IMG/VR virus record: IMGVR_UViG_3300042309_001896
Coordinates: 1-28,034 of that record
Source: a virus
Reading direction: 5' to 3' (one strand)
Length of the DNA stretch: 28,034 nt
Under the pieces are notes generated by a model. That model was not told where the DNA came from. It saw only the letters and a list, made by a program, of their open reading frames with translations, and searched no databases. Within the stretch, counting starts at the first letter, position 1. Each line of letters starts with the position of its first letter. Below are positions 2,448 to 7,225 of the stretch, in pieces. Position numbers and translations under genes: made by a program.

Positions 2448-3107
2448 ATGAATTTTAATCATGTAGCGCTTGATAAAGAGATACCAAAACTTACTCAAGT
2501 AAACGAAAACGGAACCAGATATTATGTTACAATGGAGGGGAACAAATACCCCTCCATTACTACTGTTTTGTCTGCTTATAACCAGAAAGCTATTTACGAG
2601 TGGCGGCAGAGAGTCGGGGAAGAAGAAGCTAATAGAATCTCCAAGCAGGCATCCGGAAGAGGTACTCGCATTCATACCTTATGCGAGAATTATCTTAACA
2701 ATGAAAAGCCTGAATTTAAGAATCCTTTAGATATCGAGATGTTCGACTCATTTAAACCGGTCTTACATCGCATTAACAATATCTACGCGCAAGAAATTAG
2801 AATGTATTCTGATCATTTGCGTATCGCTGGAACAGTTGACTGTGTAGCAGAATTTGATGGTAGGTTGTCCGTAATCGATTTTAAGACAGCGCGCAAACCT
2901 AAACGCGAAGAGGACATTGAGAATTACTTTATGCAGGCTACTGCTTATGCAATAATGTTTGAAGAGCGGTTCGGTATCCCGGTAGGGAGAACGGTAATTG
3001 CAATAGCGGTCGACGATGAAACGCCTCAAGTCTTTGTCAACCGTAGAGATGACTATGTTGAGAGACTTCTTTACTATCGAGATCTTTACGAGCGTAAAGT
3101 TGCCTAA
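2448..3107 (+). CDS. PD-(D/E)XK exonuclease, MGME1/Cas4-like
   Basis: A 219-residue nuclease of the PD-(D/E)XK superfamily, resembling the phage and mitochondrial genome maintenance exonucleases (MGME1-like). Motifs appear in the expected order: SITTVL near residue 36, GRGTRIHTLCE with H76 and E80, GTVDCV with D131, VIDFKTARK with D144 and K146, and QATAYA with Q163. It is expected to trim single-stranded ends of DNA in replication or recombination, in the same early region as gp32 and gp59. The start ATG 2448 follows the endolysin stop by one base. A 10-bp perfect hairpin lies inside the coding sequence at 2531-2558. Confidence 0.88.
   Translation: MNFNHVALDKEIPKLTQVNENGTRYYVTMEGNKYPSITTVLSAYNQKAIYEWRQRVGEEEANRISKQASGRGTRIHTLCENYLNNEKPEFKNPLDIEMFDSFKPVLHRINNIYAQEIRMYSDHLRIAGTVDCVAEFDGRLSVIDFKTARKPKREEDIENYFMQATAYAIMFEERFGIPVGRTVIAIAVDDETPQVFVNRRDDYVERLLYYRDLYERKVA
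2531..2558 (+). repeat. Perfect 10-bp inverted repeat in exonuclease gene
   Basis: AATGGAGGGG (2531-2540) is the exact reverse complement of CCCCTCCATT (2549-2558), with an 8-base AT-rich loop. It lies 83 bases inside the exonuclease gene and encodes the TMEGNKYPSITT segment. No T-run follows directly. It would form a stable hairpin in mRNA. Function unknown. Confidence 0.6.
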
Positions 3108-3128
3108 ATTTTAAATCGCATATATAAT
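3100..3128 (+). promoter_or_regulatory. Sigma70-like promoter for tmRNA
   Basis: A TTGCCT element at 3100-3105 is followed by a perfect TATAAT at 3123-3128, with 17-base spacing. Transcription would start near 3135, just before the tmRNA acceptor piece. The -35 box overlaps the end of the exonuclease gene. The match is good, but the -35 element agrees at only four of six positions. Confidence 0.5.
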
Positions 3129-3134
3129 TATAGC

Positions 3135-3199
3135 TATTGCTGTATGAAGCAAAGAGAAAAGTGTTCTGGACGCGGGTTCGAATCCCGCCACCTCCACCA
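3135..3199 (+). ncRNA. ssrA: tmRNA acceptor piece (3' part of permuted ssrA)
   Basis: This is the 3' (acceptor) part of a two-piece tmRNA, placed upstream of the coding piece. It contains a T arm (GCGGG 3172-3176, loop TTCGAAT 3177-3183, CCCGC 3184-3188), the 3' acceptor strand CACCTCC (3189-3195), discriminator A3196 and encoded CCA 3197-3199. CACCTCC pairs fully with GGGGGTG at 3386-3392, including a G3-U pair at G3388/T3193, the alanyl-tRNA identity element. Upstream, TGTTCT (3162-3167) pairs with AGGGCA (3406-3411) and TGCTGT (3138-3143) with ACAGCA (3428-3433), forming helix P2. The mature 5' end is inferred from the promoter and is uncertain by a few bases. It is not an ordinary tRNA: there is no anticodon arm or D arm. 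Confidence 0.88.
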
Positions 3200-3208
3200 A
3201 AAGATATT

Positions 3209-3445
3209 ATGAAGACGAGAAAGCTGCAGTCCGGTGAAGAAGTTACTGAGCTTGATTCTGCTAAGACATTGACGGTCTATACTAAGTGCCCTGAAAAATG
3301 GCTGCTTACAGACATGGAAACCGGAGAGCAGTATGTAGGTTTTACGACTGATGGTAGCTTAAGCTGGAAAAAAGTATCTTTTGGTGGGGGTGTACTGGTT
3401 TCGACAGGGCAAAGAGTAACAGAGTGGACAGCACGTCAGGAGTAG
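3209..3445 (+). CDS. Possible small protein encoded in the tmRNA spacer
   Basis: An ATG frame of 78 codons begins ten bases after the acceptor CCA. Codons 1-59 lie in the spacer removed between the tmRNA pieces. The last 19 codons and the stop lie in the mature tmRNA coding piece. The spacer part looks protein-like: residues 27-54 include CPEKWLLTDMETGEQYVGF followed by a TTDGSLSWKK segment, suggesting a small beta-rich domain. There is only a weak purine stretch (AAAAGA) upstream as a ribosome site. It could be a real gene, a decayed gene whose 3' end was displaced by the tmRNA, or chance. I favour a real or recently real coding segment, but cannot show it. Confidence 0.4.
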   Translation: MKTRKLQSGEEVTELDSAKTLTVYTKCPEKWLLTDMETGEQYVGFTTDGSLSWKKVSFGGGVLVSTGQRVTEWTARQE

Positions 3446-3548
3446 ACGTAAAAAGCAAATCAAGTAAATGCAAACGACGAAAAGTTCGCATTAGCAGCCT
3501 AAACGCTGCTTAGGGTTCGGTGGGTTCCTCGTAACAGAATACCCACCA
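3386..3548 (+). ncRNA. ssrA: tmRNA coding piece (5' part of permuted ssrA)
   Basis: This is the tag-encoding part of the two-piece tmRNA. It opens with the acceptor 5' strand GGGGGTG (3386-3392) and the conserved D-loop-like TACTGGTTTCGAC, then the P2 strands pairing back to 3138-3167. The tag frame lies at 3470-3502. The tag end is within a P5-like helix (TTAGCAGC with GCTGCTTA). The piece ends with a 7-bp hairpin, GGTGGGT (3519-3525) with ACCCACC (3541-3547), a 3' end shape like that of bacterial two-piece tmRNA coding RNAs. tmRNA with SmpB rescues stalled ribosomes and tags the product for proteolysis. No smpB gene is visible here, so host SmpB would be used. The exact 3' end is inferred. 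Confidence 0.9.
3470..3502 (+). other. tmRNA proteolysis-tag reading frame (ANDEKFALAA)
   Basis: Starting at the resume codon GCA 3470 the frame reads A-N-D-E-K-F-A-L-A-A and then stops at TAA 3500-3502. With the alanine carried on the tmRNA the added tag would be AANDEKFALAA. The C-terminal ALAA is the ClpXP/ClpAP degron. The tag is close to the E. coli tag (ANDENYALAA). Confidence 0.85.
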
Positions 3549-3577
3549 TTTTACTCACACACACAAAGGAGATTAAT

Positions 3578-3847
3578 ATGAGTAATATGACACCGTTCGA
3601 GATTCGCCTAGAACTTCTAAAAATGGCGAAAGACATGCTTACTGAAGACTATTACGGTAGGCGAGAGCAAGTTTCCAATGACTGGCAAGTCAAAGTAGAA
3701 AATGCTCGACACGCAGGTGCCCAGCCACCTGATCACCCAGGCTTTCCAGCCTATCCGACCGAAGCTGAGATTATTAACAAGGCTCAGACCTTGAATGGCT
3801 TCGTTTCACAAATACCTGTAGATACAAAAACTTCAACCAAGAAGTAA
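3578..3847 (+). CDS. Conserved small phage protein of unknown function
   Basis: An 89-residue protein with a strong ribosome site (AAAGGAG, 3565-3571) before ATG 3578. It has an amphipathic N-terminal helix (TPFEIRLELLKMAKDML), a Pro-rich middle (about 49-60) and a second helix (TEAEIINKAQTLNGFVSQ), then a Lys/Thr tail. I recall similar proteins in T4-like cyanophages, with no known function. It directly follows the tmRNA coding piece, by 29 bases. It is followed by a GC-rich hairpin and then the SleB hydrolase gene. Confidence 0.8.
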   Translation: MSNMTPFEIRLELLKMAKDMLTEDYYGRREQVSNDWQVKVENARHAGAQPPDHPGFPAYPTEAEIINKAQTLNGFVSQIPVDTKTSTKK

Positions 3848-3899: not shown

Positions 3900-4436
3900 A
3901 TGGTAAGTATTTTAAACTGGATACTTAGAATTTTCTTTCTTGTCCTTGTGGCAAAAGGGCTACTATACATTATTGAAACAAAAACTGAGTACCTTAAAAC
4001 CAAAGACTACAACGCCAAGTACATTACAATGGCTGAAAGAGAAAAACAGCTTGCTTGTCTGGCAAAGAACATTTACTTCGAAGCTGGTTATGAGCCCTTC
4101 GAAGGTAAAGTAGCAGTAGCACAAGTTACAATTAATCGTGTTAATTCAGGAAAATTTCCTGATGATATCTGCGATGTTGTATTCCAGAAAACTAAATTTA
4201 CAGATCGAGTCGTCTGTCAGTTTTCCTGGTACTGTGAGCGCGGTCCTGTGGTGCCTAAGAAGTCACCAGCATATATTGAGTCACAGGAAGTAGCAAAGAA
4301 AGTATTGCTGGAAAATTTCCGACTACCTTCATTGCATGGTGCATTGTACTACCACGCTGATTATGTAAACCCTAATTGGAAGTTACCTCGAATTACTAAA
4401 ATCGGTCAACATATCTTTTACGGAGAAAATAAGTGA
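3900..4436 (+). CDS. Membrane-anchored SleB-type cell-wall hydrolase
   Basis: A 178-residue protein with a hydrophobic N-terminal segment (about residues 4-25), which acts as a signal anchor or uncleaved signal, followed by a Hydrolase_2 (SleB-like) domain. Family features seen are NIYFEAGYEPFEGKVAVAQV with the conserved Glu near residue 60, TINRVNSGKFPDDICDVVFQ, CQFSWYC and a late GALYYHADYVNP-PNW region. SleB-like enzymes cleave peptidoglycan glycan strands. AAGGAG upstream sets ATG 3900. The stop overlaps the start of the next gene (GTGA). Together with the GH19 enzyme and the membrane protein downstream it may form the lysis set, acting from the periplasmic side. Confidence 0.88.
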   Translation: MVSILNWILRIFFLVLVAKGLLYIIETKTEYLKTKDYNAKYITMAEREKQLACLAKNIYFEAGYEPFEGKVAVAQVTINRVNSGKFPDDICDVVFQKTKFTDRVVCQFSWYCERGPVVPKKSPAYIESQEVAKKVLLENFRLPSLHGALYYHADYVNPNWKLPRITKIGQHIFYGENK

Positions 4437-4762
4437 ACATCGATCCTAGAATTACCAATGCTCTTTCAACAACCAAGGATTATGTACTTAGATTTTTTCA
4501 AAGCCTTAATAAGCCCACTGCTGATACTTTTGCATGGCTTAGCATGGTTGTTCTTAACTGCGCAACAATTCCAAGCTTTCTTGCGGTTAAATCTGGACTG
4601 ACGGATAAAATGCCTCCTCTTGATCTAGTAATTATTCTTTGGGTTGGTCTATTGCTATACTTTATCAGATCAGCTATACTTAAAGACATGCTTATGGTTG
4701 TAACTCTAGGCATTGGCTTTGCTCTTCAATCCATTGCACTAGGGCTTATCTTTTTCGTATGA
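4433..4762 (+). CDS. Three-helix membrane protein, possible holin
   Basis: A 109-residue protein with a GTG start inside the GTGA overlap, with CGGAG upstream. The soluble N-terminus (about 35 residues, MNIDPRITNALST...) precedes three predicted membrane helices at roughly 36-53, 62-81 and 86-108. Size, topology and position next to the SleB hydrolase make a holin role possible. I recall homologues in other marine T4-like phages annotated only as membrane proteins. The holin call is inference from context. The gene ends in an ATGA overlap with gp33. Confidence 0.78.
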   Translation: MNIDPRITNALSTTKDYVLRFFQSLNKPTADTFAWLSMVVLNCATIPSFLAVKSGLTDKMPPLDLVIILWVGLLLYFIRSAILKDMLMVVTLGIGFALQSIALGLIFFV

Positions 4763-5025
4763 ACGACGTTACTGCAGAATCTCTAACTGATTCGTTAATT
4801 ATTACCAAGCGCTTTCGCTCACCCAACGAGTTCAGTATCTATATTGACGAGATTGTATCTAAGAAAAAGATAAGCTATATGGATGCTGTAATTGAGTATT
4901 GTAACGAAAAAGACATTGATGTGGATAGTATCGGTCCTCTCATCAATGTGAAGTTACGTGAAAAGATTCAACTCGAAGCCGAGAACGCAAATTTGATTAA
5001 ACCCAGAGGTCATCTTCCTGTATGA
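4759..5025 (+). CDS. 33: gp33-like late transcription coactivator
   Basis: An 88-residue protein resembling T4 gp33, which bridges RNA polymerase and the sliding clamp to activate late promoters. Recognisable parts are the SPNEFSIYIDEIVSKKKISY-MDAVIEYCNEKDIDVD helix block and the LREKIQLEAENANLI segment, ending in a RGHLPV tail that could serve the clamp contact. T4 gp33 is 112 residues, so this is a compact version. The ATG overlaps the preceding stop, and its own TGA overlaps the gp59 start. The neighbour gp59 and the late-promoter boxes near 12360 support the call. Confidence 0.7.
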   Translation: MNDVTAESLTDSLIITKRFRSPNEFSIYIDEIVSKKKISYMDAVIEYCNEKDIDVDSIGPLINVKLREKIQLEAENANLIKPRGHLPV

Positions 5026-6997: not shown

Positions 6998-7225
6998 ATG
7001 AAGTACCTTATCGCACTAGTAGCATCTATGTTTATGCTTTCTGCATATGCCAGCGATGCAAAGAAGGAAGAAAAGAAGGAACCAGCTAAGGCTGCTGAAG
7101 TAAAGAAAGATGATAAGAAGGCTGACGCTAAGGCAGAACCAAAGGTAAAGAAGCCTTGTAAGGAAGGTCAGACCGAAGAGAAGGACGGCTGTCACGAAGT
7201 AAAGAAAGCCGAAAAGAAGAAGTAA
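6998..7225 (+). CDS. Secreted lysine/alanine-rich small protein
   Basis: A 75-residue protein with a typical signal peptide: MKYL, a hydrophobic core (IALVASMFMLSA) and an AYA-S cleavage site near residue 19. The mature part is over a third Lys, with Ala and Glu in short KKxxK-type repeats, and holds two cysteines (KKPCKEG and DGCHEV) that could form one disulfide. It would be exported to the periplasm or beyond. AGGGAG precedes ATG 6998. Terminators bound it on both sides, so it looks like a separate cassette. Such proteins are common in bacteria, and it may have been taken from a host. Function unknown. Confidence 0.75.
   Translation: MKYLIALVASMFMLSAYASDAKKEEKKEPAKAAEVKKDDKKADAKAEPKVKKPCKEGQTEEKDGCHEVKKAEKKK

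Follow-up and report, generated by a model that had tools for sequence, protein, structure and literature searches.

The intervening segment (ITS) of a permuted two-piece tmRNA gene in a T4-like phage has probably been colonized by a small protein gene, with one precursor RNA serving both as mRNA and as pre-tmRNA and with tmRNA maturation making translation of the nested gene self-limiting. The locus lies in a 28,034-nt stretch of viral DNA (positions 1 to 28,034 of the IMG/VR record IMGVR_UViG_3300042309_001896), the whole of which is referred to below as the window. The original prediction for this locus described the tmRNA and overlooked the protein gene in the 186-nt gap between its pieces, which is the unusual part of the locus; taken as a whole, that interpretation is partly supported. 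The features of the locus are listed in Table 1. Comparison sequences fetched for the analysis, both viral contigs and bacterial genomes, are designated by L-numbers.

Table 1. Features at and around the permuted tmRNA gene of the window
Feature	Position	Strand	Basis or remark
PDDEXK exonuclease	2448..3107	+	Conserved upstream neighbor
Promoter-like TTGCCT-17-TATAAT	3100..3129	+	10/12 positions matching
3′ (acceptor) piece: P2 5′ strand, T arm, CACCTCC, discriminator A, encoded CCA	3138..3199	+	ARAGORN and Rfam
Predicted terminal helix, 5′ strand: acceptor strand, ACCA, then AAAGATATT	3189..3208	+	Covers the bases just upstream of the nested ATG
ITS between the tmRNA pieces, 186 nt	3200..3385	+	
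Nested phrog_4098-like gene	3209..3445	+	Profile match, tblastn, pN/pS
Predicted terminal helix, 3′ strand: last nested codons GTA TCT TTT GGT and acceptor strand GGGGGTG	3373..3392	+	
5′ (tag-coding) piece, beginning GGGGGTG	3386..3549 (3′ end approximate)	+	ARAGORN and Rfam
Resume codon and tag frame ANDEKFALAA*	3470..3502	+	ARAGORN
gp33-like late-transcription coactivator	4759..5025	+	

Permuted tmRNA gene and its genomic context

A permuted tmRNA of betaproteobacterial type was confirmed at positions 3138–3549 of the window. The ARAGORN program reported it at 3107–3593 (margins included) with the tag ANDEKFALAA. According to the covariance-model search that the original prediction had proposed as a check, both the beta_tmRNA model RF01850 (3091–3557, 138.9 bits, cut-off 84, E = 1e-42) and the tmRNA_permuted model RF04321 (3138–3502, 136.7 bits, cut-off 47) scored above their cut-offs, and the betaproteobacterial model gave the best fit. 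The two-piece gene earlier placed at 3100–3548 is thereby borne out with correct coordinates, as are the end of its 3′ piece (CACCTCC-A-CCA, at 3199) and the start of its 5′ piece (GGGGGTG, from 3386). The acceptor stem that joins both pieces had also been read correctly (7 bp, including the G3·U70 wobble), and the covariance model agrees with the two P2 pairings claimed across the spacer, namely, 3138–3143 with 3428–3433 and 3162–3167 with 3406–3411, the second of which contains two G-U pairs. The ALAA end of tmRNA tags is read by ClpXP, and it is kept in the window tag. The promoter-like sequence noted earlier is present, but matches of its quality are not above chance in this AT-rich stretch (1 found, 1.3 expected). 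A stronger sequence, TTGACA-16/17-TATAA(T/A), is located directly upstream of the 3′ piece in L103, L104, and the phage Melnitz.

The neighboring genes are T4-like and encode PhoH, the PDDEXK exonuclease, the gp33-like coactivator, a gp59-like helicase loader, gp32, and baseplate proteins. The best isolate matches of baseplate gp6 were found in Melnitz and pelagimyophage HTVC008M (about 41%). The tmRNA gene is located between the PDDEXK exonuclease and the late-transcription coactivator in both Melnitz and the window; S-PM2 and S-ShM2, two cyanophages, have no tmRNA there, and their exonuclease and gp33 genes overlap. Most of the viral contigs nearest in the exonuclease also carry a permuted tmRNA just downstream. 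Since Melnitz and most of these contigs share the position, the window tmRNA occupies an established tmRNA locus of the phage group.

The original prediction, which made no claim as to an earlier description, was correct in assigning a permuted tmRNA to a T4-like phage. The two-piece tmRNA of Melnitz (an OM43 myophage; Methylophilales) is already published, in a paper that classed 53 of 133 distinct phage tmRNA structures as two-piece (PMC9004378). The window tmRNA by itself is therefore not new in kind, and the permuted phage tmRNA as such was rejected as a new finding (PMC9004378).

As for the host, for which a lineage with two-piece tmRNA had been proposed, the tag and the best-fitting model point to a betaproteobacterial-type source. 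A search for the exact tag (TAAATGCAAACGACGAAAAGTTCGC) gave no match in bacterial genomes. With a relaxed tag pattern, 12 of 12 genome hits in an 84,980-species genome collection belonged to Betaproteobacteria, to Cupriavidus or Zoogloea only. In several Cupriavidus genomes (L282–L292), extra permuted tmRNA copies with the tag ANDEKFALAA were observed on chromosomes and plasmids; these copies accompany the main ANDERFALAA gene (L428), as if borne by mobile elements.

Two different cell-wall enzymes flank the tmRNA locus within 3 kb (1808–2446 and 3900–4436), a chitinase-class endolysin and a cell-wall hydrolase (Hydrolase_2). In addition, positions 6998–7225 encode a small protein that is predicted to be secreted; its N terminus is signal-like and its tail is rich in Lys, Glu, and Ala.

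Protein gene within the intervening segment

The ITS of the window consists almost wholly of one ORF, which starts with an ATG 9 nt after the CCA. Its product up to the predicted cleavage site (MKTRKLQSGEEVTELDSAKTLTVYTKCPEKWLLTDMETGEQYVGFTTDGSLSWKKVSFG; 59 codons, 3209–3385) is similar to phrog_4098 with E = 1.1e-10; residues 3–56 align with profile positions 506–559 of 559, that is, to the last position and the C terminus of the family, and conserved residues are retained. The tblastn analysis found similar sequences in Straboviridae, including T4-like phages of Serratia and Proteus, with E = 2e-9. The AlphaFold model of the product has a pLDDT of 90, and its matches in BFVD were RB69ORF052c and proteins of uncultured phages. 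A fold search against the PDB revealed nothing significant, and a sequence search against solved structures found no match. Relatives of the product were detected in 351 viral stretches (8 in the first search). Most of the best 80 of these 351, which were examined, lie in records without a permuted tmRNA, and a role of the product as a tmRNA-specific partner protein was rejected on this ground.

The same nesting was found in an independent contig, L104, which has an alpha-type tmRNA and in which the ORF starts 11 nt after the CCA. Comparison of its nested copy with that of the window gave 29 synonymous and 25 non-synonymous changes (pN/pS 0.25), and in three further nested families pN/pS was 0.18, 0.29, and 0.07. 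Judging from these sequence comparisons, the nested genes evolve under purifying selection. The number of open frames in ITS of at least 50 nt (8 observed, 4.25 expected) is weak evidence alone; because such simple counting is weak, the argument for coding rests on homology, the length of the ITS, and the synonymous bias. The Shine-Dalgarno sequence of the window gene is itself weak (AAAAG), and AAAGG or AAAGGAG precedes most other nested genes.

A pattern search for more nested phrog_4098 copies added L104 alone (L279 denotes this contig too); CDS-less tmRNA-like genes or chance matches accounted for the remaining hits. Minimal tmRNA-like genes of about 75 nt, with standard order and without a tag-coding part, were observed in L276, L277, L278, L280, and L002, where the following phage gene begins immediately after them with a AGAGGATTTAATG-type start. 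A CDS-less tmRNA that they resemble, that of phage DS6A, has been described as an inhibitor of host tmRNA (PMC11915505).

Missing stop codon and terminal helix

The nested frame of the window continues past the predicted RNase P site (3385/3386), up to which it has exactly 59 codons and no stop. On uncleaved RNA, it enters the 5′ piece for 19 codons and ends at the TAG at 3443–3445. In L104, 58 codons without a stop precede the 5′ piece and 19 more follow. A stop of its own after the conserved WKK end is present in the free-standing genes of L103, L105, L106, and L107 and absent in the window and L104. The loss of the stop from the message by cleavage is a prediction from the position of the RNase P site. 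In a single case, a lost stop is weak evidence of selection, because only about three codons separate the usual C terminus of the family from the cleavage site. Among 32 tabulated nested examples, no stop precedes the cleavage site in 17, and a stop is present in 15 (in ten of them exactly 1 nt before the site); every non-stop frame in this set ends within 3–22 codons on uncleaved RNA. The non-stop step thus cannot apply to all nested genes, about half of the others being provided with a stop that often falls 1 nt short of the cleavage site. Avoidance of one reading frame by the nested genes where the ITS ends was considered and dropped, as that frame is present in L433, L441, and L486.

The two ends of the ITS are complementary, which is general in permuted tmRNA genes, including bacterial ones (L282). 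In the window, they are predicted to form an uninterrupted 20-bp helix that prolongs the acceptor stem of the pre-tmRNA and in which the ribosome-binding region of the nested gene pairs with its own last codons. According to predicted folding of the isolated ITS with the acceptor strands rather than of the whole precursor, the unpaired probability of the first six ITS bases is about 0. In the other nested cases, folded in the same way, the Shine-Dalgarno sequence lies within the helix with an unpaired probability near zero in most of them. The nested starts are situated at a near-constant distance of 9–15 nt after the CCA, the Shine-Dalgarno sequence being inside the helix strand.

Occurrence of nested genes in other phages

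Two scans of fetched phage contigs were made. The first, which selected for a Shine-Dalgarno sequence and an ATG after the CCA, gave many nested ORFs. The second selected only for the 3′ end of the ITS and the 5′ start of the tmRNA and is unbiased with respect to ORFs but favors ITS beginning with AAAAG; here, 15 of 20 non-redundant ITS of at least 90 nt contained an ORF of 25 or more codons whose start lay within the first 23 nt, with 2.3 in shuffled sequences. Four of the remaining five belong to a two-ORF family (GDSDEEP plus membrane peptide). Two overlapping small ORFs per ITS were observed in L149, L185, L364, L381, L396, L438, and L495. The first of them (..GDSDEEPSSK..) has a perfect AAAGGAG; the second, encoding a membrane peptide, starts inside the first in another frame and terminates at a TGA located 1 nt ahead of the 5′ piece. 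In the exonuclease-neighbor set, an ORF was present in two of five non-redundant long ITS (0.48 expected), and many 109-nt ITS contain no ORF. Because the share is lower in this set, nesting is regarded as common but not universal.

The nested genes span many unrelated families. DUF6356 was identified in L190 (34.2 bits, cut-off 24.4), PGDYG in L472 (29.2, cut-off 27; phrog_419, 4e-12), and phrog_13558 in L458 (9.8e-13); several membrane peptides without known relatives were found as further cargo. The family C microgene occurs with the acceptor types GGGCCTG, GGGGATG, and GGGGGTG and with differing tags, which indicates that microgene and tmRNA are exchanged separately. As for the phrog_4098-like gene, in L103 it precedes the tmRNA gene and ends with a stop of its own, and the short ITS of L103 lacks it. 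The upstream flanks of L103 and L104 are nearly identical and the place of the gene differs (upstream of the tmRNA versus in the ITS), so the gene has moved between positions; the pair appears to record a recent move into or out of the ITS.

In bacteria, the ITS in ARAGORN calls was 0–57 nt long in 34 of 36 cases, usually 25–37 nt, with no ORF; the remaining two (78 and 215 nt) have abnormal tags and look like miscalls. Permuted tmRNAs of other phage isolates (Rhodobacter, Roseobacter, Caulobacter, Mesorhizobium, Xanthomonas, and Stenotrophomonas phages) have ITS of 89–126 nt with no comparable gene, and the ITS of HTVC008M and Mosig are 44–49 nt long. The ITS of Melnitz contains a 41-codon open frame running into the 5′ piece, which is a weak case; no homologue of this frame was found.

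Proposed mechanism and alternative explanations

One precursor RNA would act as both mRNA and pre-tmRNA. Translation of the microgene would need the terminal helix open, and RNase P together with 3′-end maturation would need it folded and would remove or truncate the message. On the 59-codon fragment left by cleavage, a ribosome would then be translating a non-stop mRNA, and tmRNA from the same transcript could rescue the stalled ribosome and tag the microprotein. Synthesis of the microprotein would occur chiefly while tmRNA maturation is slow, a self-limiting arrangement that recalls the E. coli ArfA message. The microgene is most probably read from uncleaved pre-tmRNA, and maturation of the tmRNA would either shut it off or leave it non-stop and subject to tagging, the final step being one that we infer. 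A wider version, in which the ITS of T4-like phages is a dedicated nest for exchangeable microgenes, the precursor alternates between message and pre-tmRNA, and the stop-less members tag themselves via RNase P, can be offered only tentatively.

The alternative that survives best is that the nested microgene has no regulatory meaning and the ITS is simply a tolerated, safe insertion site, which we consider unlikely. Ribosomes would then read the uncleaved precursor and terminate either where the ITS ends or at the first stop codon encountered in the 5′ piece; retention of the ITS helix would account, as a side effect, for the absent stop and the buried ribosome-binding site. This would agree with the variety of unrelated families among the nested genes and with the early ends of all non-stop frames on uncleaved RNA. 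Close relatives of the window also differ in cargo: the ITS of L143, whose exonuclease is 82% identical to that of the window, encodes a peptide with a single membrane span, and phages of the L114 type have a 109-nt ITS without an ORF. However, the near-constant spacing of the starts and the position of the Shine-Dalgarno sequence in the helix fit coupling to tmRNA maturation better than accident, and 3′ processing to the CCA should destroy the message.

It is far less probable that the ORF is a decaying relic that yields no protein, its sequence being kept as spacer or RNA structure only. In permuted tmRNAs from phages of alpha- and gammaproteobacteria (L575–L584), ITS of comparable length contain no long ORF, so long ITS exist for other reasons as well. 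A relic would nevertheless not be expected to retain intact homology to free-standing proteins and Shine-Dalgarno sequences, a synonymous excess in five nested families, or ORFs in such a share of the ITS relative to shuffled sequences. The explanation given originally, an ordinary phage tmRNA that frees ribosomes late in infection or redirects proteolysis and nothing more, is consistent with the presence of all core tmRNA features and with the ALAA end of the tag, but it leaves the coding content of the ITS unexplained and has a negligible probability.

Comparison with known systems and implications

The window tmRNA shares with permuted two-piece tmRNAs (RF04321; alpha, beta, and cyano models RF01849–RF01851) the gene order, the acceptor stem with a G·U pair, the T arm, P2, the encoded CCA, the resume codon, and a tag ending in ALAA; it differs from the bacterial ones in that its ITS is 186 nt long and contains a gene, whereas theirs is about 30 nt and empty. 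The Melnitz ssrA (MZ577097, 45984–46436) is likewise phage-encoded, permuted, and found at the same locus, but it is described by its authors as alphaproteobacterial-type, and the window fits the beta model (PMC9004378). No ORF in the intervening segment is mentioned in the Melnitz paper, in which the word "intervening" is absent (PMC9004378). The nested product has the 55-residue C-terminal domain of phrog_4098 (RB69ORF052c-like, Straboviridae) with a predicted fold matching RB69ORF052c; elsewhere, in contrast, phrog_4098 is free-standing or a C-terminal domain and has its own stop codon.

The E. coli arfA message loses its stop by RNase III cleavage and becomes a tmRNA substrate (PMC3985003). 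The window message is predicted to resemble it in losing the stop by RNase cleavage and in being a tmRNA substrate; the enzyme is RNase III there and, by prediction, RNase P in the window, where message and rescuing RNA would come from one transcript. A protein gene inside a tmRNA gene is also known from the tmRNA group I intron with a homing endonuclease (PMC11915505), but that element is self-splicing, mobile, and located in the T loop, whereas in the window there is no intron and the gene lies in the processing spacer.

Searches of the open-licence literature, including the 2025 tmRNA database paper (PMC11915505), revealed no reference to protein genes located in the intervening segment of tmRNA. 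On sequence evidence, a stop-less gene nested in the tmRNA ITS appears to recur in many related phages, and no earlier description of it was found in that literature. Such genes have escaped annotation owing to their location within an RNA gene; the Melnitz record has none there.

A processing spacer that is normally about 30 nt long and discarded thus serves many phages as a coding locus for unrelated proteins. It suggests concretely how one transcript could yield either a protein or a ribosome-rescuing RNA but not both, and the cases with known families (DUF6356, PGDYG, and phrog_4098) make the idea of transcript sharing testable with standard reporters.
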